NCBI GenBank assembly: GCA_024362935.1
Contig: JANCRA010000114.1
Location: 62,001 to 126,000, forward strand
DNA: 64,000 bases
Direction of reading: 5' to 3'
From: Setophaga petechia
Lineage: Eukaryota > Chordata > Aves > Passeriformes > Parulidae
Shown here: one piece after another, positions 11,283 through 55,379 of the stretch
Position numbering within the stretch: the first letter of the stretch is position 1
How the letters are laid out: each line of letters begins with the position of its first letter
The notes under the pieces: generated by a model
The model's database searches: none
What the model was told of the DNA's origin: nothing
The model's input: the letters and a program-made list of their open reading frames with translations, nothing else
Position numbers and translations under genes: made by a program

Positions 11283-12299
11283 TAAGGGAAGCCCTGCAAA
11301 TGCCCTGACTCCAGGAACAGCTTCATGCACCGCTCCAGCTTCATCCTCCTTGGAAGGATCTCATCCTCCTTGGAAGGATCCACGTTGATCAGAGCCCTGG
11401 TGACCCATATTCCCAGTGATCTGTGCTGGTAGGACACCTGGCTGGTTGTCCTTTTGGTTTGGCCTAGAGTTCATCTTGATTCATTTTATCACTTAAAAAC
11501 ACATGAAATAGGACTAAAAAGAAAGTAATTGATCAAGGATGTCAAAAGTCTCACAATTTCACAGCTATTTCAGGCGGAATTTATGGTTTGGGGCCATGTT
11601 CTGGAGGATTTGTGGGTTCTTGGGGGATTTCAGGCAGTGTTCTCAATATCTTTGCACTCCAAAAGTCAAGGTGGATTGATCTGTCACCTCAAAATGACTC
11701 AGTCCCACCGAAAACAACTCAATCCTACCCCAAAGGGCTCAACACACCCTCAATTTGGCTTATTCCCACCTAAAAAAAAAACTCAGTCCCATGTCAAAAT
11801 TAGTCATATCCACAACCTCCAGGGTGAGATGGGATTGGAAGGAGATTTGGAGAAGTGGGATCAAAATTTGAGGGTGTTGGACCAGGATTATGTGGGGCTG
11901 GGTGTGTGGGATCTATTTTGATAGTAAATAACATTTCCAGAATTATTGATTTCTGCCCCAATCATTTTCCATCACTTCCAGGTTTTTTTTTCAGCCTGCA
12001 ACCTTCTCAGCTGATTGTGTTTGTGTCGTCCTTTCTTTCCTGCCTTTCTTTGCCTGCTCTGTTTCTCTCTCAGTGTCACTGTCGGATCTTGCTCCACTTG
12101 GCTTTTGGCTCCTTCTTAAGATCTTTGCCTCACAGGGCAGGAGCATCTTTTCCTGTCTGGGAACTGCAATTCCAGCCCCTGGGAGTGTGTGCCATGGATC
12201 CCAGAGGGGCATTCCCGAGGCTCCCAGGGTGCTGCTCCTGCCGTGCCTCCCAAGGAGCTGTGCAGGGCCAGGGGACAAGGTCCAGCAGCTCTGTTGGTT

Positions 12300-12680
12300 C
12301 TGCAGTGCCACAAGGGCCCCTGGTTCCATGAGTTTCCCTACTGCCAACAGCGGTTCCTTGGTTCCCATGATGCCCTGCTGCTGTGTCACCATGGATATTT
12401 GGTGCCATGAAGTTCTTCAGTGTCACAATGGCCTCCCTCGCTCCATGAGCTTCCACAGTGTCACAATGGACTCCTTGGATGGGCAGTGTCACCATGGACC
12501 ATTGGCTCCATGCAGCCATGCTGGGTCACCATGGACTCCTTGGTTCCATGAGGTTCTGGGAGTGTCTCCATGGTCTCCTTGGATCCACAGTGTCACAATG
12601 GACCACTGGATCCACGTGGCCCTGCTGTGTCACCATGGCCCCTTGGTTCCATGGGACCTCCTCAATGCCTAAATGGCCCC
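12300..12680 (+). repeat. 38-bp minisatellite array (left outer)
   Basis: About ten units of a 37-38-base repeat whose core words are TGTCACAATGG, CCTTGGTTCCATG and CCCCACAG. Orientation is forward. It is the mirror partner of the reverse array at 54,230-54,660. Confidence 0.85.
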
Positions 12681-12689
12681 TTCATTCCA

Positions 12690-14040
12690 AAAGGAACACA
12701 TAAGTTTTAAAGAAACATTGAGCAAATCCTGCTCAACACACGTGGGAACATGTGTTTGCATTCCAAAGAGAGGTTAAAGGTGAGGATGGCACCAGCAGCT
12801 TCCATCTGCAACAGAGATCCAGGGAAAGGACAGGGACAGAGAATTCAGCTGCAAGACTCAGAGAATTCTGCTCCCAGAGATCATTTCTGCTCACACTGTC
12901 CCTTGTAGAAAGGTGACACCATTCCAGGCAGCCTGCACTGAGCAGGTGGCTCCTGAGTGGGGTTTGTTGCTCAGGAAACCTGCTCTGGCTTTTCCATTTT
13001 CTCCTTCCCAACAGGAAAACTTCTCCTGGGCCTGTGTGCAGGCAGAGCCCTGAGGAGAGCAGGTGGGACACGGTGCAATGGGCTGGGACATGGAGCTGCA
13101 GAGCTCAGGGGACAAGGTTCTGCTGCAGGGCACAGGGATGTCAGTCCCAGGTGGGCCATGTCAGACATGGTGAGGCTGGGGGTGAGGAGCAGCTTGTCCA
13201 AACAGGATCAGCCCTCAAGGGGCTCATTCTTCTCCATGCCCAGACCTCCTAAGGAGACATTCAGCATCAAGATCATCTAGGGAATGCTTCTATTTGCTCT
13301 TCTCTGAACTGGAAAATAAAAAAAGACTCATTTAATAAACAAAAAAAGTCATGAGGTGCACTTGGAAGTCTTCCTCCTTAATAGAACTCCAAACTAACTG
13401 CAATCAGCTGTTCAAGCACTGCAGACTTCAAGACCATTGAAGGAAGACAAAGAGCCACCAAGGTCTTGCTGTGTTTTATTGAGCCCCATGGTAGATTTGG
13501 GGCTGAGTCCAAGACCCTCAGGCACTGAGAGGAAGTTGAGGAAGCTGCTCAACTAAATCAGAAGCAAAACTCCAAGTCCCCTGGAGCATCACTGGGCCCC
13601 ACTGAGGGCAGGGAGTGCCAAAGGCTCCCCAGGGACTGCTGAGAGCAGATCCTTGAGGCCAGGATTGCAGGGAGCCCAAGGCTCTGAGCAGGGAACTGCA
13701 ATGCTGAGCAAGGCCTGGGCTGGCTGGGGGAAGCAGAAAGGCCAAGCCCTGAGCCCAGCCTGGGACAGCAGGGCCTGTCCCTCACGGGTGGCTCGGGGCT
13801 GTTTGTGGGGCAGTGGGATGTGAAGGGCAGCAAGGACAAACGTCATAAACCTGTGTGACACTCCAGATCTTTGTGGAACCAAGGAGCAGTGAGATACTGT
13901 GGGGCCTCATGGAAACAAGAGGCCATTGTGAGCCTGCAGGGCTGGAACACCCCAGAACTCTGAAATGCTGGGGGTAACCAAAGGTTCCTTTCCTTGAGTT
14001 TGGTGCACAGGAGAAACACCAACCCGATATTCTCAATATG
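12690..14040. other. Arm segment without recognised gene
   Basis: Mirror partner of about 53,120-54,200. The part at 13,500-13,880 is well conserved between arms and gives overlapping open frames in three registers in both copies, which points to GC-rich non-coding DNA. A short piece of the 38-bp minisatellite is present near 13,860-13,930. Confidence 0.6.
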
Positions 14041-14045
14041 GGCAG

Positions 14046-14183
14046 ATGCAAAGAATATTATTGGTAGGAAGGTTCCCACAAGGATCATCAAGCCCAGCTC
14101 TTAAGTGAATGGCCCACACAGGGATTGAACCCACAGCCTCGGTGATACCAGCACCATGCTCTGAGCAACTGAGCTAAGAGGTC
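14046..14183 (-). mobile_element. tRNA-derived SINE with CR1-like tail (TguSINE1 type)
   Basis: Read on the minus strand, the element starts with a tRNA-like head with polymerase III box A (TTAGCTCAGTTGG) and box B (GGTTCAATCCC, plus coordinates about 14,121-14,131). The head resembles tRNA-Ile. It is followed by a tail with GATTTGATGATCCTTGTGGG and GAATATT that looks like a CR1 3' end. This is the organisation of the passerine SINE mobilised by CR1. The anticodon arm is degenerate, so it is not a working tRNA gene. The same insertion sits at the mirror position in the right arm, so it predates the palindrome. Confidence 0.85.
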
Positions 14184-14819
14184 AAAATGACACCAAATTT
14201 TACTGGCAAAATAGAGACAATCAAGGAACTTGGGCAAAGCATATAATACAACACCCACTTCAACATAAAACTCTTATCAAAGCATTAAGTTCATTAACTT
14301 AGCCCATTTAACCTAAAAACCGTTTACCCTTAAGATGTTAAGTTACCCAAAAATGTTCCAGGCAAGTAGGATTAGAAGGAGAAGAAATAGAGAACATCAG
14401 AAAGACAGAAGATCTATAGAACGACACATACAGAGGTACCAACTGCTCGGGTTGCACCATCACAAACAGACAAAGCCCAGCAAAAGGCAGGATCCAGACC
14501 ATGGGCTGGCCTCGTGCTCCGGCTTTTAACCCCCTGGGCCTTCATGGGCCCGCCCCTGGGGTGGGACTGCCAGTTGCTTGTCCAATCAGAGTCAGGGTAG
14601 GCAACAGCTGTGCCTGTTGTATTATTGATTGGCAGCTCTGCCAGTCAGCAGAAAGTCAGCACTGCCCCTGCTGTGTGATTGACAGCTCTGCCAGGCCAGG
14701 GCTGGGGGCGGGGCTCTGTCCCACCACAAACCAAGGCCTGACCCGGCCCTGGCCCCACACGGGCATTCCGAGCATCCCAAGGTGTCTCGGGACATCGATC
14801 TCATCCAGCCTCTGACAGT

Positions 14820-16840
14820 GACCACGATGACACTGCAGAACCTCATGGAACCATGGGTCAGTTGTGACAATGCTGGTCCAAGGAAACCGTGGTGACGCTA
14901 CGGAACCTCATGAAATCAAGGACACCATTGTGCAGCTCAGGGGATCTATGGATGCAAGGGTCAGTAATCAAACCTTGGGGCCCAGAGAAACAAGGAACCA
15001 TGGCAACACAGCGGGGCCACATGGAGCCAAGGGAACCTTGTGACTCTGTTGGGTCTCATGAAACCAAGAAGCCATTGTGACATGGCAAGACCTCATGGAA
15101 TCAAGGAGAACACTGTAATAGTGTGGGGACTCATGAAGTCAATGGAACATGGAACAGGTCTGCCTGGTTTGGCCTCCTGGGGGCTGTCTGACAGGTCCCA
15201 CTGAATTTGACATGTCAAGGGCCACTTCCCATCTGACCGTGAAGCACTGGTGCTCTGTGCTTTTATTCCTATGGGAAAGAACTGTCTTTCTTGTCTAGGC
15301 ACCCATGGCCAAAATTGGGATTCTGCATCTAAAATTCCCTATATCCAAGAGTTACTCCCAGACAAAAATCTGCCCGTACAGTCAAGTCTGGCTAGACTTG
15401 GCCTCTGGTGACTGCCTCTCATCTGCCCCTGCACCACTGGGGCTTACTTGTTTCCTTCCTATGGAGACCATTGTGACACTGTGGAGCATTGTGGAGCCAA
15501 TGGGCCATGGTGACACTGCAGGCTCTTGTGGAACCTGTTACACTGTAGGAACTTGTGGAACCAAGGGGAACATTGTGACCCTGCAGGGTACCATGGGTCC
15601 AATGGGCCACTTTGACACTGTGGGGCCTCGTGGAACCAAGGACATCACTGTGGCTCTGTTGGGCTGCAGGGTCCCAAGGGCCCAGTGTGAAGCAGCAGGG
15701 CTTTGTGGAACCAAGAGGCCATTGCTGCATTTCAGGGCCTTGTGGAGCCAAAGGGCCATTGTGATCCTGCAGGACACCGTGGATCCATGGAGAGCATTGT
15801 GGCATTGCAAGGCCCCATGGAATCCTGGAGACCATTGTGACACTGTGGGGCCCCATGGAACCAAAGGAACATTGTGACCCTGCAGGGCCTCATGGAAGGA
15901 AGGGGCCATTGTGACACTGTGGGAACTTGTGGAACCAAGGGAATCATTGCGGCACCACTGGAGCCCATGGAACCAAGGGGCCATTGGACACAGCGAGGCT
16001 TCATGAAACCAATAGATCATTATGAAACATGGGGCCTTGTGGAACCATGGAGACCATGAAGATCCTTAAGGACTTGTGTAACCAAAGGGGCCATTATGAC
16101 ACCTGAGGACATCATGGAAGCCAGGGACCATTGGGACATTGCAAGGAGCCATTGTGACACTGCAGGGCTGCTGTGGAACCAAGGGAACATGAAATAGGTG
16201 TGGCTGCCTTGACCTCCCAGGGGTCACCTGACAGGTCTGGCTGACCTTGGAATGTGGAAGGCCACTCCCATCTGCCCCTGAAACACTGGGACTCTGAGCT
16301 TTTCTTTTTATGGAAAAGAACTGTCCATTTTTTCCAGGCATCCATGGCCAAAATTAGGATTCCACCTCCAAATTTATGTCTATCCAAGTATTGCTGCCAG
16401 ACAAAAGTTGCCAGGACAGACAAGTCTGGCTGGTCTTTGACTCCTGAGGGGCAGCATTCACCTGTTTTCCAAACACTGGAAAGGCCTCTATGCTTTTCTT
16501 TCTATGGAAAAAAAACCCATCTCTCTTCTCCAGGCACAAATGTTTTAAATTAGGATTCTGCATACATAATTTCAAATATCCAAGGGTTGCAAACCTGCCA
16601 GGACAGACAGGTCAGGCTTGCCTTGACCTCTGGTGGTTTCTGTTCATCAACCCCTGAAGTATGAGGGCTCCGTGGTTTCCTTCCTATGGAGACCAATGTG
16701 ACATTGGGAGCCTTGTGAAATGAAGGGACCATTGTGACACTGCAGAGCACCATGGATCCAAGGGACCATTGTGACACTGTGGAGCCTTGTGGAACCAAGG
16801 ACATCATTGTGGCTCTGTTGGGCGACACGGTCCCAAGGGA
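14820..16840 (-). repeat. Composite satellite cluster: 38-bp arrays and 190-bp units
   Basis: Two to three alternations of reverse-oriented 38-bp minisatellite (14,820-15,130; 15,460-16,190; 16,680-16,830; words CCATTGTGACACTG and CATGGAACCAAGG) with units of about 190 bases (15,130-15,460; 16,190-16,680). The 190-base unit carries TTTCCTTCCTATGGA, GGCCAAAATTGGGATTC and CCAGACAAAA; its TTCCTATGGA word recurs at about 15,263, 15,455, 16,305, 16,493 and 16,677. Long open frames inside are repeat artefacts. Confidence 0.85.
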
Positions 16841-16859
16841 CCAGAGTAAAGCAGCAATG

Positions 16860-17300
16860 TGGGTGTTAGCCTGCCTGTAACTCAAGAGTCGGCCAGATTT
16901 TGCCCCGGAAGAACAGGGCACGAGTTTCAAGCCCTGGGAATCGCTTGTTTAACTTAGGGTGAGTTTGAGAGTTCCCCCATAAGCCTTTAGTGTTGTTATC
17001 CTATCTTGTCCAAGTTCTCCTCCCCTAGTGGTTACTGGTTTCCCTATAGGGTTATTGTTCTAGAGTGTTCTACCCTCAAGTGTATATTTTGTTGGTCCCC
17101 TTTTCCTCAGGTCTTTGAATCCCACCCCTCATACTGTTCTCGACTTCTCCATGTTTATTGTTTTTCACCCTGTTACTAAGTTCTTCTTGGGCAACTCCAT
17201 TGATCCTGCTTGTAGGAGCATGGGGGGGTATGACGATTGGTACGGATAGAGACGAGAGATCTCTGAAGCCAGGTCTTGGAACTTGTGGTTCAGTCATGTC
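16860..17300. mobile_element. ERV LTR remnants
   Basis: The part at 16,860-17,170 has LTR-like features (two stretches rich in short pyrimidine runs, a TATA-poor promoter-like segment and TGTTTATTG). The part at 17,220-17,290 contains GAGATCTCTGAAGCCAGGTC, the same word found in the complete LTR at 34,479-35,162. It lies just upstream of the gag remnant and may be the damaged 5' end of that provirus. Borders are not resolved. Confidence 0.5.
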
Positions 17301-17699
17301 ACCTGGGGTTAGCTGATGGATAGGCCAGCGCTCCCTGGGATTTTGGATTGTCCTGTGCTGGCAGATTCATGATTGCTTTGAGGGACCTTGGCCAGGATCC
17401 ACAGGGACAAAATGGTTTCACCTGTGTAGGATTGCAGGTGGGTTTGGGGAAATGCAGGACAATTATTGCCCATTTTGCCACTGTGTTTTTTCAAAACACA
17501 TCCACATCCCATAACTGATTTGAGGTGTTCCAGCGGCTGTTCCACCTAAGGCGGAGAAAGAGAAAAATGGGCAGCTGGGTGACCAAAGTAGAAAGGTGCA
17601 TATATGGATGCTTTAAGTTAATTCTCACTGATCATGACCAAATATCTTCAAAGAACAAATTAAAATGAATCATGAAGTGGATCATTAAAATTTTCCAGA

Positions 17700-18611
17700 T
17701 TTTCCTGAGCCTGACCGTCCTCCCTCCATCTTGGTTCCTTCACTTCCTGCTACCTCAACCTTCTCTTCCACCCTGAACGAACCTCCAGACTCCACCCCCA
17801 CGACTGCGGGTCACTCCCTCACTGTAAATCATTCCACCTACACCTTGGGACATGCCTCCAGAAGGCCTGCCTGGAGGTCCGCCATCCTCGATCAAGGCCC
17901 TTCCTCCCCCACACCTGACAAAATGGCAGTGCCCTTTGCCTCACCCTCCAGCAACAATATAACCTCCATGGTCAAAGATACTAAGCCCAACTGTCACACT
18001 ATTTCTAATCTGAATGTTTCTGCTCCAAGTTATTCTTCCTCCCCAGAAGACAGTTAGGACTGCTTAGAGCCACCTCACCCCTCAATCCCAGAAGATCCCT
18101 GGGAAAGGAAGAAGACTGGCAAATAGTCTTGAAATTCCTCATTGCACCGGCATGTTATGAAAGAAAGGGGCAGAATCCCTGGTGTCAACCATTGGTTTAC
18201 AGCAAAATCAAGGATCTGTGTAGCGCAGCTAAAGACCAGAGGAAGGACTTAACTTGTTTTAATGGCCTAGTGAGGGTCATGTTTACAGCACATGTCTTAA
18301 CCCTCTATGATTTAAAATATATTATGACCATGTTGTTGTCACCTACAGAATACACCCTGTGGAAAGGGGAATGGAAGGGTTTACTTAATCAATTAATACC
18401 AGACTATGCTAATAATGAAGCAAGGGTGAAATTGACAATCAACCATCTAGCTGGAGAAGGACAACACAGCCTTCCAGATGATCAAGCAGCAGGAATCCCC
18501 AGAGAAGTATTGGATGATATCAAAGAGATGGCTTTGAAAGCTTTAATCCAGGTATTGGATGGTAGCACCCCCAATTTGGACTACCTTGGGTGGCTGCAGC
18601 TAAAGCTTTAG
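17700..18611 (+). pseudogene. ERV gag remnant, betaretrovirus-like capsid
   Basis: The frame at 18,129-18,611 (160 codons) is a retroviral capsid (class II/beta- or alpharetrovirus-like): an N-terminal-domain part with the YSKIKDLCSAAKD and LTLYDLKYIMTMLLSPTEY regions, followed by the LAGEGQH and DDQAAGIPREVLDDIKEMA regions. Upstream, 17,731-18,057 is a Ser/Thr/Pro-rich frame, likely the linker between matrix and capsid, broken from the capsid by a stop and frame change at about 18,056. The capsid C-terminal domain with the major homology region, the nucleocapsid and all of pol are missing. It is followed directly by envelope transmembrane sequence. Decayed and non-functional. Confidence 0.8.
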
Positions 18612-18674
18612 GACAATGAGACCATCCTGGGTGCCTGTTAAGGAAGCAAACCAATGCTGCCTCCCTCACACTGA

Positions 18675-18935
18675 GTGGCCTGCTCTCAGACACAGAGACC
18701 ATCAGACATGCCACCTTGCAGAACAGCCATAGAGTTTTTACTCTGGGCACATGGGCATGGCTGTGTAGCCTCTGAGGGCATGTGTTGCATGAACCTCTCC
18801 AGCCACAGTGAGTCAATCCAAAAGAGCATTCAGGTACTGAAGGAAGGGTTCAATAAGTTTAAAGTGGAAAACAAAGACTGGTTCACTAAAGTTTTCCAAT
18901 CCAAGGGACGAAATGGTTGGATGATGTCTAGGTAA
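18675..18935 (+). pseudogene. ERV env remnant, transmembrane subunit ectodomain
   Basis: The 86-codon frame holds the disulfide-loop region of a retroviral transmembrane subunit: a C-x6-CC motif (C VASEGM CC), preceded by a heptad-type stretch ending in RTAIEFLLWAHGHG and followed by the NLSSHSESIQKSI helix and a Trp-containing stretch. The fusion peptide and most of the surface subunit are absent; the downstream frame breaks near 18,935. A covalent C-x6-CC loop is typical of gamma/alpha-type envelopes, whereas the adjacent capsid is beta-like, so the source provirus was probably a mixed-class avian ERV. Non-functional. Confidence 0.75.
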
Positions 18936-19169
18936 AACAGGACTACTAATTTTCTTAGTGATTGTTGTTGCATTGTTACTTGTCCCATGTTTGTTTGCAT
19001 GCTTTTAGAAAGTTTTACAAAATTCTTTCAGTCCTATCTTTGTTGTAACAGAAAGGGGGAAGATACCCAAAACAGGCTCCTCATGGAATCATTGAAGGAC
19101 AGAACTAAAGGCCAGGATGGCACAAAAACCTGTCACAGACTCAGTGTGGGAAGTAAAATCCTTAAAAGT

Positions 19170-19480: not shown

Positions 19481-21210
19481 CAAAAGCCAAAGCCAAAGTC
19501 CTTTGAAAAACCTGCAGTCCCCGCAGGGAGAATTCAGGAGCCCCCAGGGCCATTGCTGAGCAAGGCTCCCCAGGGACTCCTTGCAGCAGATCCTTGAGGC
19601 CACTGGGATGTGGGCTAGGGGGGGATGCTGAGGGCAGGACAAGGGGCTGACAGTGCCCAGCCTGGCTGGGGCTGTGCCAGGAGGCCCCAGGGCCTCAGGA
19701 CAAGGTGTCTCCTCCCAGCCCTTGGTGGCACAGACCCTGCTGTGGCCCAGGGCACCAAGACTTGGCTTCTCTTTGTCCCCACCTGTCATCACTGCCTGCA
19801 GTTCTCTGCTCTGCCTGGGGCCTGGGGACACTTTCTCAGTCGTGTCCCTCACTGGGACCCATTAAAAGTCCAAGAAAGTTTGGAGTTGGATTCTGCCTTG
19901 GAGTTCTGCAGAGGTTTCTTCAGCTCCCTCTGAGGGACTGATGTTCAGGGCCTGAGCACAAAGCCCCAGAGGCTCATTCAAGTCCTGGTGCTGTGTCTGT
20001 GCTGCTGAGCTGGGCTGGGCTCCTGGCACACAGGCAGCTCCTGGTAAGCAAGCAGAGCTTCAAAAGCACATTTCTCTTGATGAGCAGCTCTTCTGGCAGC
20101 CCAGCAGGGCTGGGGCACTGCCTGCAGCCAGCCCGGGCACAGCACAGAGGCACAGAGAGCTTCAATCAGTCAGGGCTGGGAAGGTGCTGAGAAGTGCCTG
20201 GGGCACAATCACTGCCAGCCCTTGGCACAGGAACCTCTGGCTGCAGGACAATGCAGCTGCAGCTCCTGCAGTGATCTCCTAAAGCTGGAACATGCCAATG
20301 CCTGCAGAGCCTGTGAGTACATTCTCTGATTGTCTCTTGTGCAGAGCAGCCAGGGGTGCCCAGGGCTGTCGTGCAGAGCAGGGTCCTGCAGCCCAGGGCG
20401 CTGTGCTGGGGCAGGGACTCTGCTGCCTGCCAGGGACAGCTCTCAGCCAGCCCTGGCAGCTGCTCCAGCACTGGGGGACAAGATCTGGGTGGGAGGAGAC
20501 AGCTGGTCAGGCTTGGAAGTGTTCTCCTTGTGTGGGGAGGGTGCTGCATTATTCAGGACTGCTCCCGGCATGGCATTTACCTCCAGAATATTTCCAAGTA
20601 GATTATACAGGGAGCACAGCAAGGCAGGGGCTGTATAAAATGGAAATATCTGCTTTTAAAATCTACTGCTCTGGGTTGCCTGGGTGGGAAATTGCAAATA
20701 GATATTCATGTCTCGGTTCAGGTTGAGAAAATTAAAAAATTCTCTGCGATGTTACTAAACCACGCAGAGACAGAAATTATCACAGGACTCCTTAGAGGAA
20801 GCATCAGTGTTGCTTTTCCAGCCTCCTCAGGGTTGAACTGATGTTGCCATCAGAGCCTGCAGAGCCAGAGCTGCCCCTGGGCAGTGCCCGAGCTGGGAGG
20901 GGTCTGCAAGGCAGAGCTGAGCCCCCAGGGCTGGGCTGGGCTCTGGCAGCACTGGCAGGGCCCAGCCCTGGGCACAGGGAAGCAGCTGCTGGCAGGGACA
21001 GCTCCAGGCAGCAGAGCCCTGGGCAGGCAGTGGGGGGAAAGTGCCCCCAGGCTGCGCTGGGATATTTCAAGTCCTCCCCAAACCCAACTATTCCATGATT
21101 ACTTTTTTACAGATCCCCATGCCAAGGCCCAGCAAATGTCTTTGGTTTTGGTTACAGGTATCTCTTCTAAGGCTTCACTGTCCTTTTCTCTATGAACAGG
21201 ATCCCATGTG
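19480..21210. other. Upstream block of the olfactory receptor
   Basis: Conserved in mirror image at 47,420-49,060. Sub-blocks at about 19,770-20,170 recur a third time at 35,650-36,470 without a receptor gene. The left copy has about 100 extra bases just before the receptor ATG (21,130-21,222), including ATGAACAG/GATCCC, which looks like a splice acceptor; avian receptor genes often have a non-coding upstream exon. No other coding sequence is credible. Confidence 0.55.
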
Positions 21211-21222
21211 CAGCCCCAGCCA

Positions 21223-23320: not shown

Positions 23321-23324
23321 AAAT

Positions 23325-23745: not shown

Positions 23746-23759
23746 TGCAAAGATGTCCT

Positions 23760-29205: not shown

Positions 29206-29210
29206 GACAT

Positions 29211-36470: not shown

Positions 36471-36479
36471 GTGGCATGG

Positions 36480-38600: not shown

Positions 38601-38619
38601 GGGAATGCAGCAGCACAGG

Positions 38620-43045: not shown

Positions 43046-43059
43046 TTCTGTGAAATAAG

Positions 43060-45360: not shown

Positions 45361-45750
45361 TGCAGATGACACCAAGCTGGGTGTGAGTGTTGATCTGTGG
45401 GAGCATAGGAGGGCTCTGCAGAGAGACCTGAACAGGTTGGATCCAGGGGCTGAACCGCACAATTTGAGGTTTAACAAATCCAAGTACCAGGCCCTGCAAT
45501 TTGGCCCCAGTGCTACAGGATGGGGAAAGAGTGACTGGAGAGCAGCCAGGCAGAAAGGGACCTGCAGGGACTGATGGACAGCAGGCTGGACATTAGCCAG
45601 CAGTGTGCCTAGGTGGCCAAGAAGGCCAATGGCTCCTGGTCTGGACCAGGAACAGTGTGGCCAGCAGGAGCAGAGCTGCTGTGCTAGCACTGATCTGTCC
45701 CCAGATATGCACAACAGACATTGCTGCTGCAGCACCAGAGAAGGAAACAC
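45360..45750 (+). mobile_element. CR1 LINE fragment
   Basis: Sequence downstream of the reverse-transcriptase core ([12 protein letters not shown], [20 protein letters not shown] regions), with frameshifts near 45,580. Because a CR1 3' end already lies at 44,650, this is a separate CR1 copy or a rearranged piece. Mirror of 23,325-23,745. Confidence 0.7.
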
Positions 45751-45759
45751 AACGGGATC

Positions 45760-46470
45760 TTTGGAAAAAAACTTTGCTGGAAGATCCTTTAGGTCCCTTA
45801 AAGGCACCAAGAGCAAAGTCCCTCACCAACATGGTCTGTGGCCACTGGGAAGGTGAAAAGAAACAAAAAAAGAAATGGCAAAACCAATGGCTTTACTTTG
45901 TGGACAATATTAAAAAACTGAAACACAGGGAAAAAAAAGAACAAGCCCACAACCAAACTCAAAAGAAATATCAATGGTGATTTATATTGCATGTCCCTGC
46001 TGCAGCCCCGGCACTGCCACCCCCAGGGCTGTGCCCGGCCCCGAGAGCACTCAGGCCCTGCAGCAACACCAGGGCCACCAGGGCAGCGGGGCAGGGCCAC
46101 GGCAGCAGCACTGGCAACACCAAGTGCTGCTGCTGCTGCTGGGCACAGCTGCTGGGCCAGCACTGATCTGCCCCCAGCTCTGCACACAGACATTGCTGCT
46201 GCAGCTCCAGAGAAGGCAACAAAAGGGCATCTCTGCAGAGAACTCTGCTGGGAGATCCTTTATTTCCTTTAAAGCCACCGAGAGTGCAGACCCTCATAGA
46301 CTCAGTCTGTGGCCACAGGATAGGTGGAGAGAAACATAATGAGAAATGGCACAAACAGTGATATTTCTTGTAGATAATATGAAAAACTAAATCAAGGGGG
46401 AAAAGACCACATGACCAAATCAACAAGTATCAAAGATGATTTTTATTACACATGATTTGCTAACACTGGC
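45760..46470. other. Segment downstream of right receptor, no gene
   Basis: 45,980-46,330 mirrors 22,320-22,640. Two partial copies of a short block (AGAAGGCAACA...GGGATCTTTG / GGGCATCTCTG) occur at about 45,735 and 46,210. No coding family. Confidence 0.5.
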
Positions 46471-46476
46471 CACAGT

Positions 46477-47409
46477 TTAATGTTTCTGAAACCATCCAGT
46501 CATCAGTCTCCACACTGCAGCCTTGAGCTCCTGGTTCCTCAGGCTGTAGATGAGGGGGTTCAGGGCTGGAGGCACCACGGAGTACGAAAATGACAGGGCC
46601 AGATCCAGGGATGGGGAGGACATGGAGGAAGGCTTCAGGTGAGCAATTGCTGCAGTGGTGAAGAACAGGGACAGCACAGCCAGGTGAGGGAGGCAGGTGG
46701 AAAAGGCTTTGTGCCGTCCCTGCCCAGAGGGGATCCTCAGCACAGCCCTGAAGATCTGCACATAGGAGAAAATAATGAACACAAAACAGCCAAATGATAA
46801 ACAGGCGCTAACAACAATGAGCTCAAATTCCCTGAGATAGGGTTTTGAGCAGAAGAGCTTAAGAATCTGGGGGATTTCACAGAAGAACTGGCCCAGGGCA
46901 TTGTCATGGCACAGGGGCAGGGAAAATGTATTGGCTGTGTGCATGAGAGCATTGAGAAAGGCACTGGCCCAGGCAGCTGCTGCCATGTGGGCACAAGCTC
47001 TGCTGCCCAGGAGGGTCCCGTAGTGCAGGGGTTTGCAGATGGACACGTAGCGGTCGTAGCACATGATGGTCAGGAGGGAAAACTCTGCTGAGATGAAGAA
47101 CAGAAAGAAAAAGAGCTGAGCAGCACATCCAGTGTAGGAGATGTTCCTGGTGTCCCAGAGGGAATTGTGCATGGCTTTGGGGACAGTGGTGCAGATGGAG
47201 CCCAGGTCGCTGAGGGCCAGGTTGAGCAGGAAGAAGAACATGGGCGTGTGCAGGTGGTGGCCGCAGGCTACGGCGCTGATGATGAGGCCGTTGCCCAGGA
47301 GGGCAGCCAGGGAGATGCCCAGCAAGAGGCAGAAGTGCAGGAGCTGCAGCTGCCACGTGTCTGCCAATGCCAGCAGGAGGAAGTGCCTGATGGAGCTGCT
47401 GTTGGACAT
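46477..47409 (-). CDS. Olfactory receptor, OR14-like (right-arm copy)
   Basis: Intact 310-residue, intronless odorant receptor, paralogue of the gene at 21,223-22,155 in inverted orientation. Hallmarks are intact: PMFFFLLNLALSD, MCYDRY, KAFSTCLPHL, NPLIYSLRNQELK. Compared with the left copy only two residues differ in the first 100 (R19W, T79A). About 36 differ in the remaining 210, many in TM5 and in TM6 and the third extracellular loop (left 251-257 STGTFSY against TTAAIAH), which are regions likely to affect ligand binding. This start ATG is the only plausible one; upstream sequence diverges from the left copy by an indel of about 100 bases. Both frames being intact suggests both were kept under constraint for some time. 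Confidence 0.93.
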   Translation of the reverse strand: MSNSSSIRHFLLLALADTWQLQLLHFCLLLGISLAALLGNGLIISAVACGHHLHTPMFFFLLNLALSDLGSICTTVPKAMHNSLWDTRNISYTGCAAQLFFFLFFISAEFSLLTIMCYDRYVSICKPLHYGTLLGSRACAHMAAAAWASAFLNALMHTANTFSLPLCHDNALGQFFCEIPQILKLFCSKPYLREFELIVVSACLSFGCFVFIIFSYVQIFRAVLRIPSGQGRHKAFSTCLPHLAVLSLFFTTAAIAHLKPSSMSSPSLDLALSFSYSVVPPALNPLIYSLRNQELKAAVWRLMTGWFQKH

Positions 47410-47419
47410 TTGTTCTGTC

Positions 47420-49060
47420 TTGGCATGGGGATCTGTAAAAAAAAGTAATCATGGAATAGTTGGGTTGGGAGAGGACTTTAAATATCCCAGCACAGCCTGA
47501 GGGCACTTTCCCCCCACTGCCTGCCCAGGGCTCTGCTGCCTGGAGCTGTCCCTGCCAGCAGCTGCTTCCCTGTGCCCAGGGCTGGGCCCTGCCAGTGCTG
47601 CCAGAGCCCAGTCCAGCCCTGGGGGCTCAGCTCTGCCCTGCAGACCCCTCCCAGCTCAGGCACTGCCCAGGGGCAGCTCTGGCTCTGCAGGCTCTGATGG
47701 CAACGTCAGTTCAACCCTGAGGAGGCTGGAAAAGCAACACTGATGGTGCCACTGAGGGACCAGGTGCTGATCTCTGTCACTGCCTGGTTTATTCAGATCT
47801 CAGAGAAATTTTTTTATTTCTCTCAATGTGAACTGAGAGATGAATATCTGTGTGCAATTTCCCATCATGGCAACCTAGAGCAGTAGATTAAAAAAGCAAG
47901 ATTTTCCCTTTCATGCAGCCCCTGCCTTGCTGTGCTCCCTGTATAACCTACTTGGAAATGTTCTACAGTTAAATGCCATGCTAGGAGCAGTCCTGAACAA
48001 TGCAGCATCCTCCCCACACATGGAGAACACTTTTGAGCCTTTCCAGCTGTCTCCTCCCACCCAGACCAATGCTGGGAGCAGCTGCCAGGGCTGGCTGAGA
48101 GCTGTCCCTGGCAGGCAGCAGAGTCCCTGCCCCAGCACAGCGCCCTGGGCTGCAGGACCCTGCTCTGCACGACAGCCCTGGGCACCCCTGGCTGCTCTGC
48201 ACAAGAGACAATCAGAGAATGTACTCACAGGCTCTGCAGGCATTGGCATGTTCCAGCTTTAGGAGATGGCTCCAGGAGCTGCAGCTGCATTGTCCTGCAG
48301 CCAGAGGTTCCTCTGCCAAGGGCTGGCAGTGATTGTGCCCCAGGCACTTCTCAGCACCTTCCCAGCCCTGACTGATTGAAGCTCTCTGTGCCTCTGTGCT
48401 GTGCCCGGGCTGGCTGCAGGCAGTGCCCCAGCCCTGCTGGGCTGGCAGAAGAGCTGCTCATCAAGAGAAATGTGCTTTTGAAGCTCTGCTTGGTTACCAG
48501 GAGCTGCCTCTGTTCCAGGAGCCCAGCCCAGCTCAGCAGCACAGACACAGCACAAGGACTTTAATGAGCCTCTGGGGCTTTGTGCTCAGGCCCTGAACAT
48601 CAGTCCCTCAGAGGGAGATGAAGAAACCTCTCCAGAACTCCCAGGCAGAATCCAACTCCAAAGTTTCTTGGACTTTTAATGGGTCCCACTGAGGAACACG
48701 ACTGAGAAAGTGTCCCCAGGCCCCAGGCAGAGCAGAGAACTGCAGGCAGTGATGACAGGTGGGGACAAAGAGAAGCCAAGTCTTGGTGCCCTGGGCCACA
48801 GCAAGGTCTGTGCCACCAAGGGCTGGGAGGAGACACCTTGTGCTGAGGCCCTGGGGCCTCCTGGCACAGCCCCAGCCAGGCTGGGCACTGTCAGCCCCTT
48901 GTCCTGCCCTCAGCATCCCCCCCTAGCCCACATCCCAGTGGCCTCAAGGATCTGCTGGAAGGAGTCCCTGGGGAGCCTTGCTCAGCAATGGCCCTGGGGG
49001 CTCCTGAATGCTCCTTGCAGGGACTGCAAGTTTTTCAAATGACTTTGGCTTTGGCTTTTG
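47420..49060. other. Upstream block of right receptor
   Basis: Mirror of 19,480-21,200, well conserved, without the extra 100 bases before the ATG. Open frames in many registers, no recognised family. Confidence 0.55.
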
Positions 49061-49400
49061 CCTTGGAGTCTGTGAGAGGTTTGTGCAATCATGGCCTCCA
49101 ATTATCTGCTGTAATTAGTCCCTGGAGAGGCTTTGTCAGTAACAACACTCAGTGGGCTCATTAATACTTCAGGGTACTTCAGTTATTTTAAGGTACTTGG
49201 TGTTTCCATTTTGATAGAGACTCTGTGAGAGGTTTGTGCAATCATGGCCCCAATTATCTGCTTTAATGAGTCCCCTGAGAGCTTTGTACTGACACTCAGT
49301 GGGGCTCATTAATACTTTGAGATACTGAAGGTGTTTAAGATACTTTGGATTTTCCTTTCCACACTGAGTCTCTCAGAAGTTTTTCTGCCCTCCTGGCCTC
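49060..49400. repeat. Tandem repeat, unit about 135 bp
   Basis: Nearly three reverse units of the repeat seen at 19,170-19,480 (words CATTAATACTT, CCAATTATCTGCT, GAGAGGTTTGTGCAATCATGG). Confidence 0.75.
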
Positions 49401-49659
49401 AAATTCTCTCCTCCGTGGAGTCCATGAGGTGCCTGTGTTGGGGATGGATCTTAGTGGGAGCCATTCATGCTTTGAGACACTTTGGGCTTTTCCTCTGACT
49501 GTCTCCTGGAAAGGTTTGTGCAATCTCCTCTCAGGCCCTGAGTTTCCAGGGCTCGGCTCCAAATGCACCAAAGGACACATTAGGATGCAGCAAGTCCTGA
49601 CAAACCATGGCTCTGCCTTGATTTCCCTCTGCTCTGGTGCATTTCATCAGAATAGTTTC

Positions 49660-50940
49660 TGTAGTGGTTTTGATTTGCCAATTTGACATTTCTTGGAGAA
49701 TGCAGCAGTTCTTGTGGTGTGCTCAGAGTTGGCTAATTACCAGTGCACTCACTTGAATATCCTTACTTGTTTCCTGCTGTGATGATAGGATTAGGAGAAA
49801 GGCACTGTAGGCTCAAAACTTCAAAAGGGTATAAAGAAAAGTTTATTAATAGAAACGAAAAGAAAGAGTAATAAGAATCAGATCAAAACTTTCAGAACAC
49901 TTCTCTCACTACAACCTTTTCTTTCTTACTGACTGTGTAAAGAGACAAAACCGTAAATTTTCAGTCAGTTTACCACATCTAGAATAGTCTTTCTTCAGTT
50001 CACATAGGGAGAGGAGTCTCTCTTTCATGGTATGGTGACTTCTCCGTAAGAAAACAGTTTACTCATGGCTCTCAATTCCCACAAATCACAATCTGCAATC
50101 ATGAAATCCCTCCCATTTTTTCACAGCTTTTCCCACTGCTCTGTTTATGGGCCATGTCAACTTATGGGGTATTAGTTTGAAGATGAGCTGTTTAAGAGCA
50201 AAATTCTCTTCATCTATCTCTGAAATCATCTTCATCTCTAGGAACAGAGATCTTCCTCTTCTCTCTGTGAGGGCACAGGGTCTCATCTCTCTCTTTCAAT
50301 GTTCAAATTTCTCATGGGATCACAGCTACTTCAACATTTGCTTCCTTTACCATGGAGGCCTTTGCTGAACAAGTCATCTCCACATATTTTCCATGCATTA
50401 CTGGGAAAAAGAGAGCCTGTTGTATCAATTACATCCTTCTCCATTGCTTTACAAGAGGATTTCAGCCCCAAGATCAAGGCATCTCCTCATCCCTCCCACC
50501 TGGGACTCAACTTCCCCTTCACTGACCTTGGTGTCTTCATGTTGCTCCTCTGTGTGCCTGCGCTTTGTCCTTTCCTCTCACTCGAGGGAGGATGGAAGCA
50601 CTGACAGAGTTCATATCTCTCCCGGGGCCTGCAGATGGTTCCGTGACCCCGGCCGGGCTCGGTGCTTGCGGCCGGAGCTGTTTTACGATGGAGGTTTCTG
50701 CAGCGGCTGCGCTGGGGCTGTGTCAGGATGGGCCGCGCTGGGGCAGGGCCAGGATCTCAGCAGCCAGGCCAGAGCACAGCAGCAGCACGGCCGGGGGCCG
50801 ATGGCTTCTCCTCCCCCTGCCCGGGGCTTGCGGCTGAACCCCAAGGGTTTTTGATCTTTCACATGTCTTCACAGAGGCATGTACAGTTTCCTTAGTGGGT
50901 TAACAGATTGTCAATTCTCAAAGCTAATTACTGATTGGTT
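49660..50940 (-). mobile_element. LTR, sister copy of the 29.2-kb solo LTR
   Basis: The start TGTAGTGGTTTTGATTTG and the following about 1.2 kb align with 29,211-30,780. Shared landmarks are GATAGGATT..GAGAAAGG, TTTAGAACAC/TTCAGAACAC and TTAACAGATTGTCA near the end. It keeps cytosines that are T in the other copy. AATAAA reads on the minus strand (near 49,841). The 3' border is unclear because the 190-base satellite follows. It is absent from the corresponding place in the left arm. Confidence 0.75.
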
Positions 50941-51119
50941 ATTTTGTCAGACATGGAGGAAACTGCTAGCAGCTTGTCTCAGAACATCACATCCGTGATG
51001 CAAAACCACCACCACAGCAGAGAGCACAGAGCTCCTTTGTCCATATGTAGTGCTCATGTGCCCGAGGCCTCAAAATCCGTACTTGGGAGATCTCTGGGCC
51101 CTTTCCAGGGTTTTTGCAA

Positions 51120-52380
51120 TTGAAAACATTCAGCTCAGAGTCTATGAAAATCACCAGAGGACAGGGCCAGCCTGACCTGTCTGTCCTGGCTACTTTTGTC
51201 TGGGGGTAATATTTGGATATACAGATTTTGGAATGCCAAATTTTTATTTTGGCCACGGTCCCTTGACATGAAAGCCAGTTCTTTTCCATAGGAAGGAAGG
51301 AACAGAGCCTCCCTCATCTTCTGGGGCTGATGAGAGGTGGCCACCAGAGGTGAAGGCCAGCCAGAGGCCAAGGCTGTGTTTCGTTTAGAGAGATACCCTT
51401 GTATATGGGACATTTTTAGGGAGAGTACCAATTTTGACAAGGGGCATCAGAGAAGAGAAGATAGATAGTTCTTTTCCATACCAAGGACAACACGGAGCCC
51501 CAGTGATCCAGGAACTCATGAGAAGCAGCCTTCTACATGCCAAGGTCAGTTTTTGGAAAGCAGGGGAGAAGCAGCCCCTAAGAGGCCAATGGCAGCCAGG
51601 CCTGTCTGTTCTGGCAGCCTTCTCTTGGGAACAATCCTGGATGTATGGAGTTTTGGAGGTAGAATCCCAGTTTTGGCCATGGTCAACTGGTCCTATAGGA
51701 AAGAAAAGCATGAAGTCCAAGTGTTTTGGAAGCAGATGAGAGGTGGCCAGCCTCGGGCCAAGCCAGCCAGACCTCTCTCTCCTGGCACCTTTTCTCTAGG
51801 GGCTATCCTTGGACATGGGGCATTTTGGAGGTGGAATCTTAATTTTGGCAATGGACACCTGGACAGGAAGAAGAGTTCTTTTCATTAGGAAGGAAAGCAC
51901 AGAGCCCCAGTGTTTCAGGGGCAGATGAGTGCCAGGCTTCAGGAAGCCAAGGCCAGCAAGACTTGTCAGTCTTTCCCCTCTTGAACCTGTCATTTTAACC
52001 CAAAGTTCATTAACTCAAGCTCATGCAGACCCACTTGCCTGTTTCAGGAGCCAAGCTGTCCAGGCTCTGTAATAAACCTGTTGCTTGAAGTCAGTAGAGA
52101 CATTAAGACCCAATTCAAGGATGTTAACACCCCTACATTCACCCATCAAATTTCCTGTAAAGACATCTTGCCTATCAGTCACAATGGACTCCTCAGTTCC
52201 GTGGGGCTCCACAGTGTCACCATGGTGCCGTTGGCTCCATGAGGTTCTGTAGTGTCACTGTGGTGTCCCTGGACCTGCATTGTCACAATTGAGCCATGGT
52301 TCCTTGAGGTTCCATAGTGTCACCATGGGGTCCTTGGGCCTGCATTCTCACAGCTGACCATGGTTCCATGAGAAGTTGGT
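51120..52380 (+). repeat. Composite satellite: 190-bp units followed by 38-bp units
   Basis: 51,120-51,990 contains four to five diverged forward 190-base units (TTTTCCATAGGAAGGAA-type words at about 51,285, 51,472, 51,695 and 51,880). 52,180-52,380 contains five forward 38-base units. It mirrors 14,820-16,840 and keeps the 190-then-38 polarity. Confidence 0.8.
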
Positions 52381-52389
52381 ACATATGTG

Positions 52390-52975
52390 TGTGTCTTTCT
52401 ATAGATTGTCTGTCTTGTGATTGTGGTGCAGAGTGGGTTGGGGACAAAGACAACGACTCACCCAATGTCCATGTGGCAACACAGAGCGATTATTCCTCCA
52501 ACTCCTCTTTATAAAGAGGGGCATGAAAAACCTGGTCTGGATAGCCCATTGGTCTGATCTTTCACACAGCCCAGATCCTGGACCAGTGAGATGTCTGCAG
52601 CTTGGGATGCAATGTAATTGGTTGAGGTTCTGTAATTAGCTGAGGTTGACTGGCCCCTGTCAGCCAACACAGAGGTTGGTTTTATGGAGCCGGCTGGGTT
52701 TCTTATTTATAGACGAATTAATTGCGCAGTACAAACCAGCTTGTACTGTGACATAATGTGACAACACGGTCTTTCTGTTGTTCTCTATTTCTTCTCCTTC
52801 TAATCCTACTAACCTGGAACATTTTTGGGTAACCTCTTAAAGGGCTAAAGGTTTTTAGGTTAAATAGGCTAAGTTAATGGTACAATAAGAGTTTCATGTT
52901 GAAGTGGATGTTGTATTAAACCCTTTGCCCACGTTCCTTGACTGTCTGTATTTTGCCAGTAAAATTTGGTGTAAT
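52390..52975. other. No recognised gene
   Basis: Mirror of about 14,190-14,620 in its distal part (52,780-52,975). AT-rich, no coding potential and no complete element identified. Confidence 0.5.
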
Positions 52976-52978
52976 TTT

Positions 52979-53118
52979 GACCTCTTAGCTCAGTTGGTTA
53001 AAGCATGGTGCTGGTATCACTGAGGCTGTGGGTTCAATCCCTGTGTGGGCCATTCACTTAAGAGCTGGATTTGATGATCCTTGTGGGTCCCTTCCTACCA
53101 AGAATATTCTTTGCATCT
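52979..53118 (+). mobile_element. tRNA-derived SINE with CR1-like tail (right-arm copy)
   Basis: Box A TTAGCTCAGTTGG at about 52,985 and box B GGTTCAATCCC at 53,031-53,041, then the CR1-like tail with TTTGATGATCC and GAATATTC. It is the same insertion as at 14,046-14,183, in mirror orientation. Confidence 0.85.
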
Positions 53119-53119
53119 G

Positions 53120-54230
53120 TCGATGTTGAGAATATCTGGTTGGTGTTTCTAGGTGCACGAACTCAAGTCAAGGAACCTTTGGTTACCCCCAGCATTTCAG
53201 TATTCTGGGGTGTTCCAGCCCTGCAGGCTCACAATGGCCTCTGGTTTCCATGAGGCCCCACAGTGTCACACAGGGCCCTTGGTTCCATGGGCCCCAACAG
53301 TGCCACCGCGATCCCCTTGGTTCCACAACTTCCTACAGTGTCCCACTGGCTCCTTGGTTCCATGAGGATCTGGAGTGTCACACAGGTTTATGACATTTGT
53401 CCTTGCTGCCCCTCACATCCCACTGCCCCACAAACAGCCCCGAGCCACCCGTGAGGGACAGGCCCTGCTGTCCCAGGCTGGGCTCAGGGCTTGGCCTTTC
53501 TGCTTCCCCCAGCCAGCCCAGGCCTTGCTCAGCATTGCAGTTCCCTGCTCAGAGCCTTGGGCTCCCTGCAATCCTGGCCTCAAGGATCTGCTCTCAGCAG
53601 TCCCTGGGGAGCCTTTGGCACTCCCTGCCCTCAGTGGGGCCCAGTGATGCTCCAAGGGACTTGGAGTTTTGCTTCTGATTCCTTGAGCAGCTTCTTCAGC
53701 CTTCTCTCAGTGCCTGAGGGTCCTGGACCCAGCCCCAAATCCACCTTGGGGCTCAATAAAACACAGCAAGACCTCAGTGGCGCATTGTCTTCCTTCATTG
53801 GTCTTGCATTCTCCAGTGCCAGTGCCTGAACAGCTGATCAGATTCAGACTGGAGTTCTGTTAAGGATGAAGACTTCCAAGTGGACATCATGAGGGTTTTT
53901 TGTTTATTAAATGAGCCTCTTTTTATTTTCCAGTTCAGAGAAGAGCTGATAGAAGCATTCCCGAGGTGATCATGATGCTGAATGTCTCCTTAGGAGGTCT
54001 GGGCACAGAGAAGAATGAGCCCCTTAAGGGCTGACCCTGTTTGGACAAGCTGCTCCTCACCCCCAGCCTCGCCATGTCTGACATGGCCAACTTGGGATCT
54101 CTGTTGCAGATGGAAGTTGCTGGTGGCATCCTCACCTTTAACCTCTCTCTTGAATGCAAACAGATGTTCCCAGGTGTGTTAAGCGGGATTTGATCAATGT
54201 TTCTACAAAACCTTTGTCTTCCTCATGGAA
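53120..54230. other. Arm segment without recognised gene
   Basis: Mirror of 12,690-14,040. A short forward 38-bp array lies at 53,220-53,390. The part at 53,400-53,760 is well conserved between arms with open frames in three registers. Confidence 0.55.
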
Positions 54231-54660
54231 CGAAAGGGCCATTTTGGCACTGAGGGGGCGACGTGGAAGCAAGGAGTCAATTGTGACCTTGGGGTGCCAT
54301 GGAACCAAGGGGCCATGGTGACACAGCAGGGCCACGTGGATCCAGTGGTCCATTGTGACACTGTGGATCCAAGGAGACCATGGAGGCACCCCCAGAACCT
54401 CATGGAACCAAGGAGTCCATGGTGACCCAGCGGGGCTGCATGGAGCCAATGGTCCATGGTGACACTGCCTATCCAAGGAGGCCATTGTGACACTGTGGAA
54501 GCTCATGGAGTGAGGGAGGCCATTGTGACACTGAAGAACTTCATGGCACCAAATATCCATGGTGACACAGCAGCAGGGCATCATGGGAACCAAGGAACTG
54601 CTGTTGGCAGTAGGGAAACTCATGGAACCAGGGGCCCTTGTGGCACTGCAGAGCCAACAG
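54230..54660 (-). repeat. 38-bp minisatellite array (right outer)
   Basis: About eleven reverse units; mirror of 12,300-12,680. The outer-end block of the palindrome follows to about 55,350. Confidence 0.85.
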
Positions 54661-55379
54661 AGCTGCTGGACCTTGTCCCCTGGCCCTGCTCAGCTCCTTG
54701 GGAGGCACGGCAGGAGCAGCACCCTGGGAGCCTTGGGAATGCCCCTCTGGGATCCATGGCACACACTGCCAGGGGCTGGAATTCCAGTTCCCAGACAGGA
54801 AAATATGTTCCTGCCCTGGAAGGCAAAGCTCTTTAGAAGGAGCCAAAGGCCGAGTGGAGCAAGATCCTACAGTGACATTTCACTGCCAGCCTTCATAACT
54901 CCATCCATGGTTGCTGTAGCTCCTGGATTGGGAATTAAATCAGGGCAGGGTCTTTGGTGGGAGCTGCCCTGGGTCAAGGGAGACACTGAGAGAGAAACAG
55001 AGCAGGCAAAGAGAGGCAGGAGAGAAAGGAGGACACAAACACAATCAGCTGAGAAGGTGGCACTCTGAAACAGAACTGGAACTGACTGAAAATGAACGGG
55101 ACAGAAAGAAAGAATTTTGTAACTCTATTTCCTATCAAAACACATTTTCCTCCCTTTCTCACAAACCTCTTGCCAGTGTCATTCAGCAGGGCTGTCAGAA
55201 AGGTTTTGTTCTGAGTGAGTGTTCCAGGCTGCAGCCACAAGCAAACAGGGAATGGGGATTTTCCTGCTCCTCTGGAGTTTGACATCCTCAGCTGAGGAGA
55301 GGAGGAGGCACCAGAAGAAAAGGGCAGCTGGGCTTCATCCTTCCACAGAAAGAAGGGAGGGGAAATTCTCCTGTCATGT

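Follow-up and report, generated by a model that had tools for sequence, protein, structure and literature searches.

Background

The closest described systems are the gamma-c (OR14) olfactory receptor (OR) genes of birds, of which 365 in chicken and 502 in zebra finch lie on unplaced contigs (PMC2758906; statements on published systems, here and below, follow the portions of the cited papers available to us). These genes cluster by species, and concerted evolution or gene conversion has been proposed for them (PMC2758906, PMC6969042). The available portions of this literature give gene trees and counts, and a mirrored pair of receptor units with GC-linked mosaic flanks is not described there. 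In Phylloscopus warblers a MARB-type region has been reported that is rich in ORs and repeats, has a GC content just above 50% and is marked by diagnostic transposable elements (PMC13347281, PMC9883250); the OR-rich contigs of these birds were plotted apart from the Z-linked contigs and from the autosomes. Human OR clusters are listed at the junctions of inverted duplications (table in PMC10766186) and ORs have been named as a gene-conversion hotspot (PMC3790853), which makes the human OR-bearing segmental and inverted duplications akin to the pair analysed here. Mammalian arrayed gene clusters are AT-biased and have low recombination (PMC10463633), in contrast to the ~51% GC of the present region.

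Another point of comparison is formed by the palindromes of sex chromosomes (human Y, primate X, duck W and pig Y), which likewise are large inverted repeats and in several cases bear genes. A published study reportedly deals with a palindrome on the W of New World sparrows. The duck W has 38 palindromes of 15.2-345.5 kb, built of repeats (PMC7787181), and in the human Y and mammalian X palindromes the arms are more than 99% alike via gene conversion (PMC3723533, PMC8981503), as compared to ~91% here.

Structure of the inverted duplication

The window, that is the whole 64-kb stretch of DNA that was analysed, has no N among its 64,000 bases. When the left arm was chained to the reversed right half, 15 collinear inverted blocks coupled 11916-35347 to 36567-55140 (13,377 aligned columns, identity 87.1% with gaps counted). 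The chain scored 16,187, against 899 for a control in which the same left arm was chained to the unreversed right half. An earlier note on this DNA had described a ~43-kb imperfect palindrome with landmarks in mirror order and an OR unit in each arm, and this description was borne out: the anti-diagonal is continuous though gapped, and each arm carries one intact OR gene. The proposed dimensions needed revision, as the arms grew from ~22 and 18 kb to 23.4 and 18.6 kb, the centre moved from 35.6 to 35.96 kb, and the spacer of 2.8 kb did not stand. With large inverted repeats and a short spacer (1.2 kb) the locus has the general layout of a sex-chromosome palindrome. Its main features are the following.

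7196-7908, + strand: third copy of the outer end of the arm, outside the palindrome (90.0% to 54653-55362)
11916-35347, + strand: left arm of the inverted duplication (23.4 kb; 15-block chain to the reverse complement of 36567-55140)
14109-14184, - strand: tRNA-Thr(ggt)-like element, left arm (ARAGORN; Rfam tRNA, 33.4 bits)
18009-18608, + strand: retroviral gag p24 fragment (PF00607, E 1.1e-20)
21223-22155, + strand: left OR14 gene, intact, 310 aa, directed at the centre (PF13853, E 1.3e-46; ATG and frame checked)
24859-25248, - strand: degenerate LINE reverse-transcriptase fragment, left arm (PF00078, E 1.3e-4, under the gathering score)
29211-30788, no strand: LTR-like insertion, left arm only (TG...CA ends, 5-bp target duplication GACAT, empty site in the right arm)
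34129-35247, no strand: minisatellite left of the spacer with a self-complementary ~20-bp core, TGTGAYRTCACA, split by the LTR insertion 34479-35162
34479-35162, no strand: LTR-like insertion, left arm only (TG...CA ends, 6-bp target duplication CACAGC, empty site in the right arm)
35348-36566, no strand: spacer (1.2 kb; palindrome centre near 35.96 kb)
36562-37143, no strand: mirror array of the TGTGAYRTCACA minisatellite, right of the spacer (core matches)
36567-55140, - strand: right arm of the inverted duplication (18.6 kb; 15-block chain to the left arm)
43624-44304, + strand: mirror partner of the LINE fragment, right arm (PF00078, E 3e-4, under the gathering score)
46477-47409, - strand: right OR14 gene, intact, 310 aa, directed at the centre (PF13853, E 1.3e-47)
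52978-53053, + strand: mirror partner of the tRNA-Thr(ggt)-like element, right arm (ARAGORN; Rfam tRNA, 30.3 bits)

The earlier note had explained the length steps between the arms by insertions. This holds for the two LTR-like elements, both of which have TG...CA ends, a target-site duplication and an empty site opposite, and the first of which contains a TTGGT pentamer array. It probably also holds for 16691-19062, the stretch around the gag p24 fragment that falls in a gap of the chain and has no right-arm block. In the other length differences, among them 12821-13144, 25830-26220, 26318-26905 and a 108-bp piece exclusive to the right arm, no insertion was recognised. The retroviral (ERV) pieces and minisatellites that had been pointed out are indeed present; the TGTGAYRTCACA core has 43 matches in the window where 0.40 are expected. 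The LINE remnants of both arms, which we take to be CR1, lie in stretches with 7-10 (left) and 7-13 (right) stops per frame in the three frames of each.

Related sequence is also found beyond the arm pairing. The spacer fragment 36055-36404 is 22-23% diverged from the segments upstream of the ORs (19773-20122 and 48419-48768) and is an older third copy of them. In a three-way comparison over 376 columns the third copy of the outer end differed from the arms by 7.7% and 10.9%, and the arms differed from each other by 9.3%.

The arms are collinear and inverted and carry intact but distinct ORs; LTR elements entered one arm once the duplication had taken place, and the divergence forms a GC-correlated mosaic. 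The most fitting explanation, and in our view a likely one, is that a ~20-kb OR14 unit was long ago duplicated in inverted orientation, as a segmental duplication, within a part of a songbird genome rich in ORs and repeats.

The receptor genes and their genomic setting

Both genes have an intact, intronless seven-transmembrane OR frame of ~310 aa. They match the OR Pfam family, and the best 120 listed matches of each are all avian by name and mostly OR14-type, which ties them to the avian gamma-c/OR14 genes. A few of the listed relatives are named just 'olfactory receptor', 'hypothetical' or 'unnamed'. The surmise that the DNA came from a songbird agrees with these names, by which songbird proteins make up 118 (left gene) and 115 (right gene) of the 120 relatives listed for each. 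Among the matches listed, the closest full-length relative of the left OR is from Agelaius phoeniceus (93%) and that of the right OR from Passerculus sandwichensis (92%). In viral and prokaryote collections, queried with a single protein and for close relatives only, the 13 and 62 pattern matches, respectively, yielded no confirmed OR relative.

The two window proteins are 87.7% identical. Of 3000 random pairs, drawn among near relatives since the relatives are the best matches listed, 69.9% were more alike. At the 38 differing residues one relative (P0118) agrees with the left OR at 24 and with the right at 11, and another (P0007) with the right at 24 and with the left at 11. For the tree 190 of the 198 relatives were kept (300-330 aa only) and 75 of these were placed; both here and in the relative search the left OR was used as 309 aa, without its first methionine. 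In the free tree the window genes fall apart, the left one grouping with P0118 of Agelaius (SH-aLRT 93) and the right one with P0011 of Geothlypis (86), with no starred branch next to either gene. A clade of both window ORs was not rejected (AU p 0.463). They could therefore still be sisters, given this AU value and the lack of starred branches.

The tree placement and the comparison with random pairs show ORs that act as independent family members, as expected if no special event took place and the two genes are simply facing neighbours in a large OR14 array, their units being older than the arrangement. The number of OR14 copies is in line with this: one 90% cluster (P0121) represents 416 sequences, and hundreds are known in chicken and zebra finch (PMC2758906). 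Against it stand the ~20 kb of common landmarks, including the tRNA-like element, the LINE remnant and the minisatellites, as well as the unrejected sisterhood and the absence of a third OR from the 64-kb window. We regard such neighbours as a distinct possibility, one that overlaps with the old inverted duplication and does not exclude it.

The setting of that duplication, in an OR-rich compartment or as member of an array, is suggested by the proteins and by the literature. The closest setting in the available literature is the Phylloscopus region, which the window (50.8% GC) resembles in its GC content just above 50%, its OR genes and its heavy repeat load. Lack of single-copy genes is a trait of the MARB-type region; of 10 hand-picked window frames, 9 match families of ORs, zinc fingers or retroelements and 1 matches nothing. 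Zinc-finger genes go unmentioned in the available descriptions of that region. Relatives of the OR14 and C2H2 zinc-finger genes lie, as compared by eye, on contigs of equal length, 5,134,823 bp in Zonotrichia and 17,439,200 bp in Haemorhous.

A GC-linked mosaic of divergence

The substitution divergence between the arms is 8.8% (1,136 of 12,912 sites) and very unevenly spread, with 1 to 69 differences in each of 60 windows of 200 bp (dispersion 11). A fit with two states, made like the GC correlations on five non-satellite blocks of the arms, yielded states of 2.5% and 18.1% in 50 tracts, with twice the log-likelihood gain at 465 versus at most 4.55 in 20 shuffles (60 fitting rounds for the data, 25 for the shuffles). 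The highest window, at 34184 (69 of 200), is minisatellite and was omitted from these analyses. Stretches without any difference reach 242 bp and exceed the 95% shuffle limits of 74-112 bp in five of six blocks; in the first block none does so. Misaligned tandem repeats were rejected as the source of the high-divergence tracts, three of which were read base by base and show scattered substitutions beside near-identical sequence.

Divergence follows local GC closely (Spearman -0.80, 94 windows), from 22% below 35% GC to 0.9% from 65% GC, the means of the lowest and highest GC class differing ~24-fold. The correlation is -0.82 in 84 non-coding windows and -0.72 to -0.88 in each of the five blocks; none of 5000 circular shifts was as extreme, although the null itself reached -0.73. 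Tract GC was taken from the left arm only, on 19 of the 26 low and 15 of the 24 high tracts, shorter ones being omitted by hand. CpG count, the expected target of recombination, correlates only weakly with divergence (-0.27). Decay from C to T was discarded as the cause of the AT-rich divergence: transitions make up about half of the differences (365 of 733), hence there is no C-to-T excess. In duplicates outside the main arm pairing divergence depends less on GC (rho -0.45, p 0.054 over 19 windows), so that the GC effect may be regional and not due to exchange between the arms.

Within the receptor, codons 1-100 have no synonymous difference between the arms over 75 sites, and codons 185-215 have a dS of 0.49. 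Codons 240-270 reach 0.46 despite a GC of 0.58, which argues against a GC-linked conversion. Purifying selection or differences in mutation rate might also have produced the mosaic, though not the duplication. The 5' part of the receptor and the sequence upstream of it are among the GC-rich parts, and the weak trend in other duplicates would fit as well. Nevertheless, we find this rather unlikely in view of the size of the divergence range, the equal strength in non-coding windows, the silent identity of codons 1-100, and a degenerate LINE stretch where constraint is not expected and where just 27 of 987 sites changed. Moreover, where CpG decay dominates GC-rich DNA should diverge faster, the opposite of what is seen. 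We infer that the mosaic reflects a patchwork of GC-linked gene conversion.

Origin of the inverted pair

A palindrome of the W chromosome, maintained by arm-to-arm gene conversion as in the Y, X and W cases, is improbable. The duck W does have inverted repeats of similar size (PMC7787181), and the long identical runs between the arms would fit as well. However, homogenised arms were rejected on the arm identity and on the comparison of the receptor proteins; the outside third copy differs from the arms about as much as these do from one another, and some OR relatives occur on contigs as long as 114 Mb. Songbird W chromosomes are not known to reach this size. Of the earlier suggestion of arm gene conversion the signs of conversion survive, and the assignment to the sex-chromosome class is not supported. 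Very improbable indeed is an assembly artefact by a fold-back read or mirror-image misjoin. Palindromic chimeras are a known artefact of long-read data, but a fold-back would have near-identical arms and was rejected on the divergence and the arm-specific LTR insertions with target duplications, in sequence free of N. Two genuine units might conceivably have been misjoined inside the spacer.

Since the two copies are old and differ in patches, mostly in AT-rich parts, the locus probably belongs to a receptor-rich repeat region, as opposed to a sex-chromosome palindrome that copies itself. Inversion or a template switch could have produced the inverted segmental duplication, at the self-complementary minisatellite arrays that flank the centre or close to them. 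Paralogous copies, including the arms and probably further ones, would then exchange short conversion tracts that keep the GC-rich parts alike while the AT-rich parts drift apart; within the receptor, the 5' part would stay near-identical while the TM5 part is free to differ. The inverted pair itself would have no function past carrying two receptor genes. To our knowledge, songbirds lack PRDM9. We tentatively suggest, as a rather doubtful extension, that ectopic conversion among songbird OR14 genes goes by base composition first: GC-rich patches would be recopied between units and their GC pushed up, AT-rich patches would escape and diverge, and the receptor itself would be split, its GC-rich 5' part being homogenised and its AT-rich TM5 segment escaping the copying.

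Implications

The resolved pair shows how avian gamma-c ORs may be packaged, with common flanks, minisatellites and retroelements, and it allows the age of a duplication to be told apart from exchange that came afterwards. Concerted evolution has long been suggested for avian ORs, and it would become directly measurable if further OR14 pairs were to show the same near-monotonic relation of divergence to GC. If general, this relation would contrast with the AT-biased and recombination-poor arrayed families of mammals (PMC10463633). Should conversion indeed go by base composition first, GC would be a dial for where receptor diversity accumulates, and the palindrome a natural pair for reading that dial.

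The inverted arms and their contents

Comparison of the window with itself revealed a clear inverted repeat. Chained self-matches pair a left arm (11916-35347) with the reverse complement of a right arm (36567-55140) in 15 collinear blocks. Their alignment has 13,377 columns and an identity of 87.1% with gaps counted, and the inverted chain scores 16,187, versus 899 for the control, in which the left arm was set against the unreversed right half. This chain bears out the outline of the imperfect palindrome of about 43 kb proposed in an earlier note, whereas the spacer of 2.8 kb given there was too long; it measures 1.2 kb (35348-36566). The main features of the arms are as follows.

21223-22155, + strand: intact olfactory-receptor (OR14) gene of the left arm, oriented to the palindrome centre
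46477-47409, - strand: intact olfactory-receptor (OR14) gene of the right arm, oriented to the palindrome centre
29211-30788: insert in the left arm only; TG...CA ends, 5-bp target duplication, empty site in the right arm
34479-35162: insert in the left arm only; TG...CA ends, 6-bp target duplication, empty site in the right arm
14109-14184 and 52978-53053: mirrored tRNA-Thr-like element, anticodon GGT (Rfam 33.4 and 30.3 bits)

The TG...CA ends, the target duplications and the empty right-arm sites identify both inserts as LTR insertions that postdate the duplication. The left-arm stretch 16691-19062, which contains a gag fragment, forms no chain block with 49446-51284, and further length steps between the arms include 12821-13144, 25830-26220 and 26318-26905. 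The arm ends are mirrored too, as are a degenerate reverse-transcriptase fragment, presumably of CR1, and minisatellites with repeat units of roughly 20 and 37 bp. Both tRNA-like elements lie narrowly above the Rfam gathering score of 29, and such low scores suggest a pseudogene or a tRNA-derived repeat; tRNA-Thr with anticodon GGT is not known from vertebrate nuclear sets.

Outside the palindrome, C2H2 zinc-finger genes at 3216-4590 (-) and 10751-11734 (+) form a second inverted pair centred at about 7.67 kb, 71-87% alike in the window self-comparison, with five passing PF00096 stretches in the left gene and two in the right. A 39-bp minisatellite at 8785-9093 (eight copies, 95% match) is evener than most arrays of the window. 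About 240 bp beyond the end of the right arm begins a polypurine array of 2.65 kb (55384-58034), rich in GAG/GAT/GAA and with strong strand skew, and 58673-63389 holds retroviral pieces, namely one that is RT and RNase H-like and one from an MLV-type integrase C-terminus (PF00078, PF17919, PF18697); a Pfam search with the frame 58673-59557 gave no match.

Divergence between the arms

The arms differ at 8.8% of 12,912 aligned sites. This divergence, and receptors unlike each other, make an actively homogenised palindrome, the gene-converting sex-chromosome type that had been suggested earlier, unlikely. The same reading is opposed by a third copy of the outer end of the arm, outside the palindrome (7196-7685), which is 7.7% from the right arm and 10.9% from the left over 376 columns, versus 9.3% between the arms themselves. 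At the zebra finch rate of 5.0e-9 mutations per base and generation, with 2-3 years per generation (PMC12047795), 8.8% corresponds by our own arithmetic very roughly to 18-26 million years, a lower bound because of exchange between the copies.

The differences form a mosaic: 60 windows of 200 bp hold from 1 to 69 each (variance/mean 11). A two-state fit to the five non-satellite blocks (9,647 sites) gave classes of 2.5% and 18.1% divergence in 50 tracts, with mean lengths of 233 and 118 bp, and twice the log-likelihood gain was 465 versus at most 4.55 in 20 shuffles. Identical runs exceed the shuffle limit in five of six blocks (longest 242 bp), and in three strongly diverged tracts read base by base the substitutions are scattered and end within tens of bases.

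Divergence follows GC content closely (Spearman -0.80, 94 windows of 100 bp). Its mean is 22.2% where GC is below 0.35 (6 windows), 13.7% and 9.4% in the next two rising classes (19 and 20 windows), 3.9% at 0.55-0.65 (36 windows) and 0.9% at 0.65 or more (13 windows). The correlation is -0.82 in non-coding windows alone (n=84), -0.72 to -0.88 in each of the five blocks, and still -0.80 with GC computed from identical columns only; none of 5000 circular shifts was as extreme, the shift null reaching -0.73. A simple arm-specific story is spoken against by the weaker trend in four other duplicate pairs of the window (-0.45, p 0.054, 19 windows), by the correlation of just -0.27 between CpG count and arm divergence, and by receptor codons 240-270, diverged despite a GC of 0.58. 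The nearby zinc-finger pair shows 11-24% divergence in its six windows with GC of at least 0.55, versus the arms' 3.9% at 0.55-0.65.

The receptor genes

Left and right receptor have different residues at 38 of their 310 positions, and a search of the window for a third OR gene found none. Among the matches listed, songbirds, assigned by names, account for 118 of 120 for the left receptor and 115 of 120 for the right, and the top full-length relatives are from Agelaius (left, 93%) and Passerculus (right, 92%). When alignment scores are compared for 190 relatives among these matches, 95 come nearer to the left receptor than its partner in the right arm does, and 160 come nearer to the right receptor than its left-arm partner does; 69.9% of 3000 random pairs of such relatives exceed the left-right similarity. 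A free tree of 77 rows joins the left receptor to an Agelaius gene (SH-aLRT 93, unstarred) and the right to a Geothlypis gene (SH-aLRT 86, unstarred). The separateness of the receptors is a matter of distances, since the AU test fails to reject a tree forced to unite them (p-AU 0.463).

Codons 1-100 contain no synonymous difference over 75 sites, and dS is 0.49 in codons 185-215. Codons 100-130, 185-215 and 240-270, which we take to be TM3, TM5 and TM6 of the odorant pocket, hold 26 of the 38 amino-acid differences; synonymous divergence is raised too in the latter two.

Genomic setting and proposed origin

The GC content of the window (50.8%) is like that of OR-rich regions described in two warblers, namely unplaced willow warbler scaffolds whose GC is 50-51%, whose repeat content is 87-95% and whose genes are mostly ORs (PMC9883250), and homologous, OR-enriched chiffchaff contigs with GC just above 50% (PMC13347281). 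Among the matches listed, relatives of the zinc-finger gene and of the OR genes of the window lie on equal-sized contigs in Zonotrichia albicollis (P0240, P0062; 5,134,823 bp) and Haemorhous mexicanus (P0218, P0172; 17,439,200 bp), a match judged by eye in which equal size is assumed to mean the same contig. Among the papers listed in literature searches, judged by titles and abstract openings, none concerned a bird OR palindrome.

Arrays with the self-complementary core TGTGAYRTCACA, matched 43 times in the window versus 0.40 expected, lie on both sides of the spacer. According to published work, inverted duplications can arise when the template is switched at short inverted repeats (PMC10766186), and we infer that the duplication may have originated in this way at these arrays. 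As to later exchange, birds lack PRDM9 (PMC10781513), recombination in the zebra finch overlaps CpG islands above chance and its gene conversion favours GC at 59% (PMC12047795), and conversion raises GC in primate X palindromes (PMC8981503). We take the palindrome to be an old inverted duplication that would have arisen inside an OR14-rich repeat region, and whose arms would later have been patched by short gene-conversion events with a preference for GC-rich DNA.
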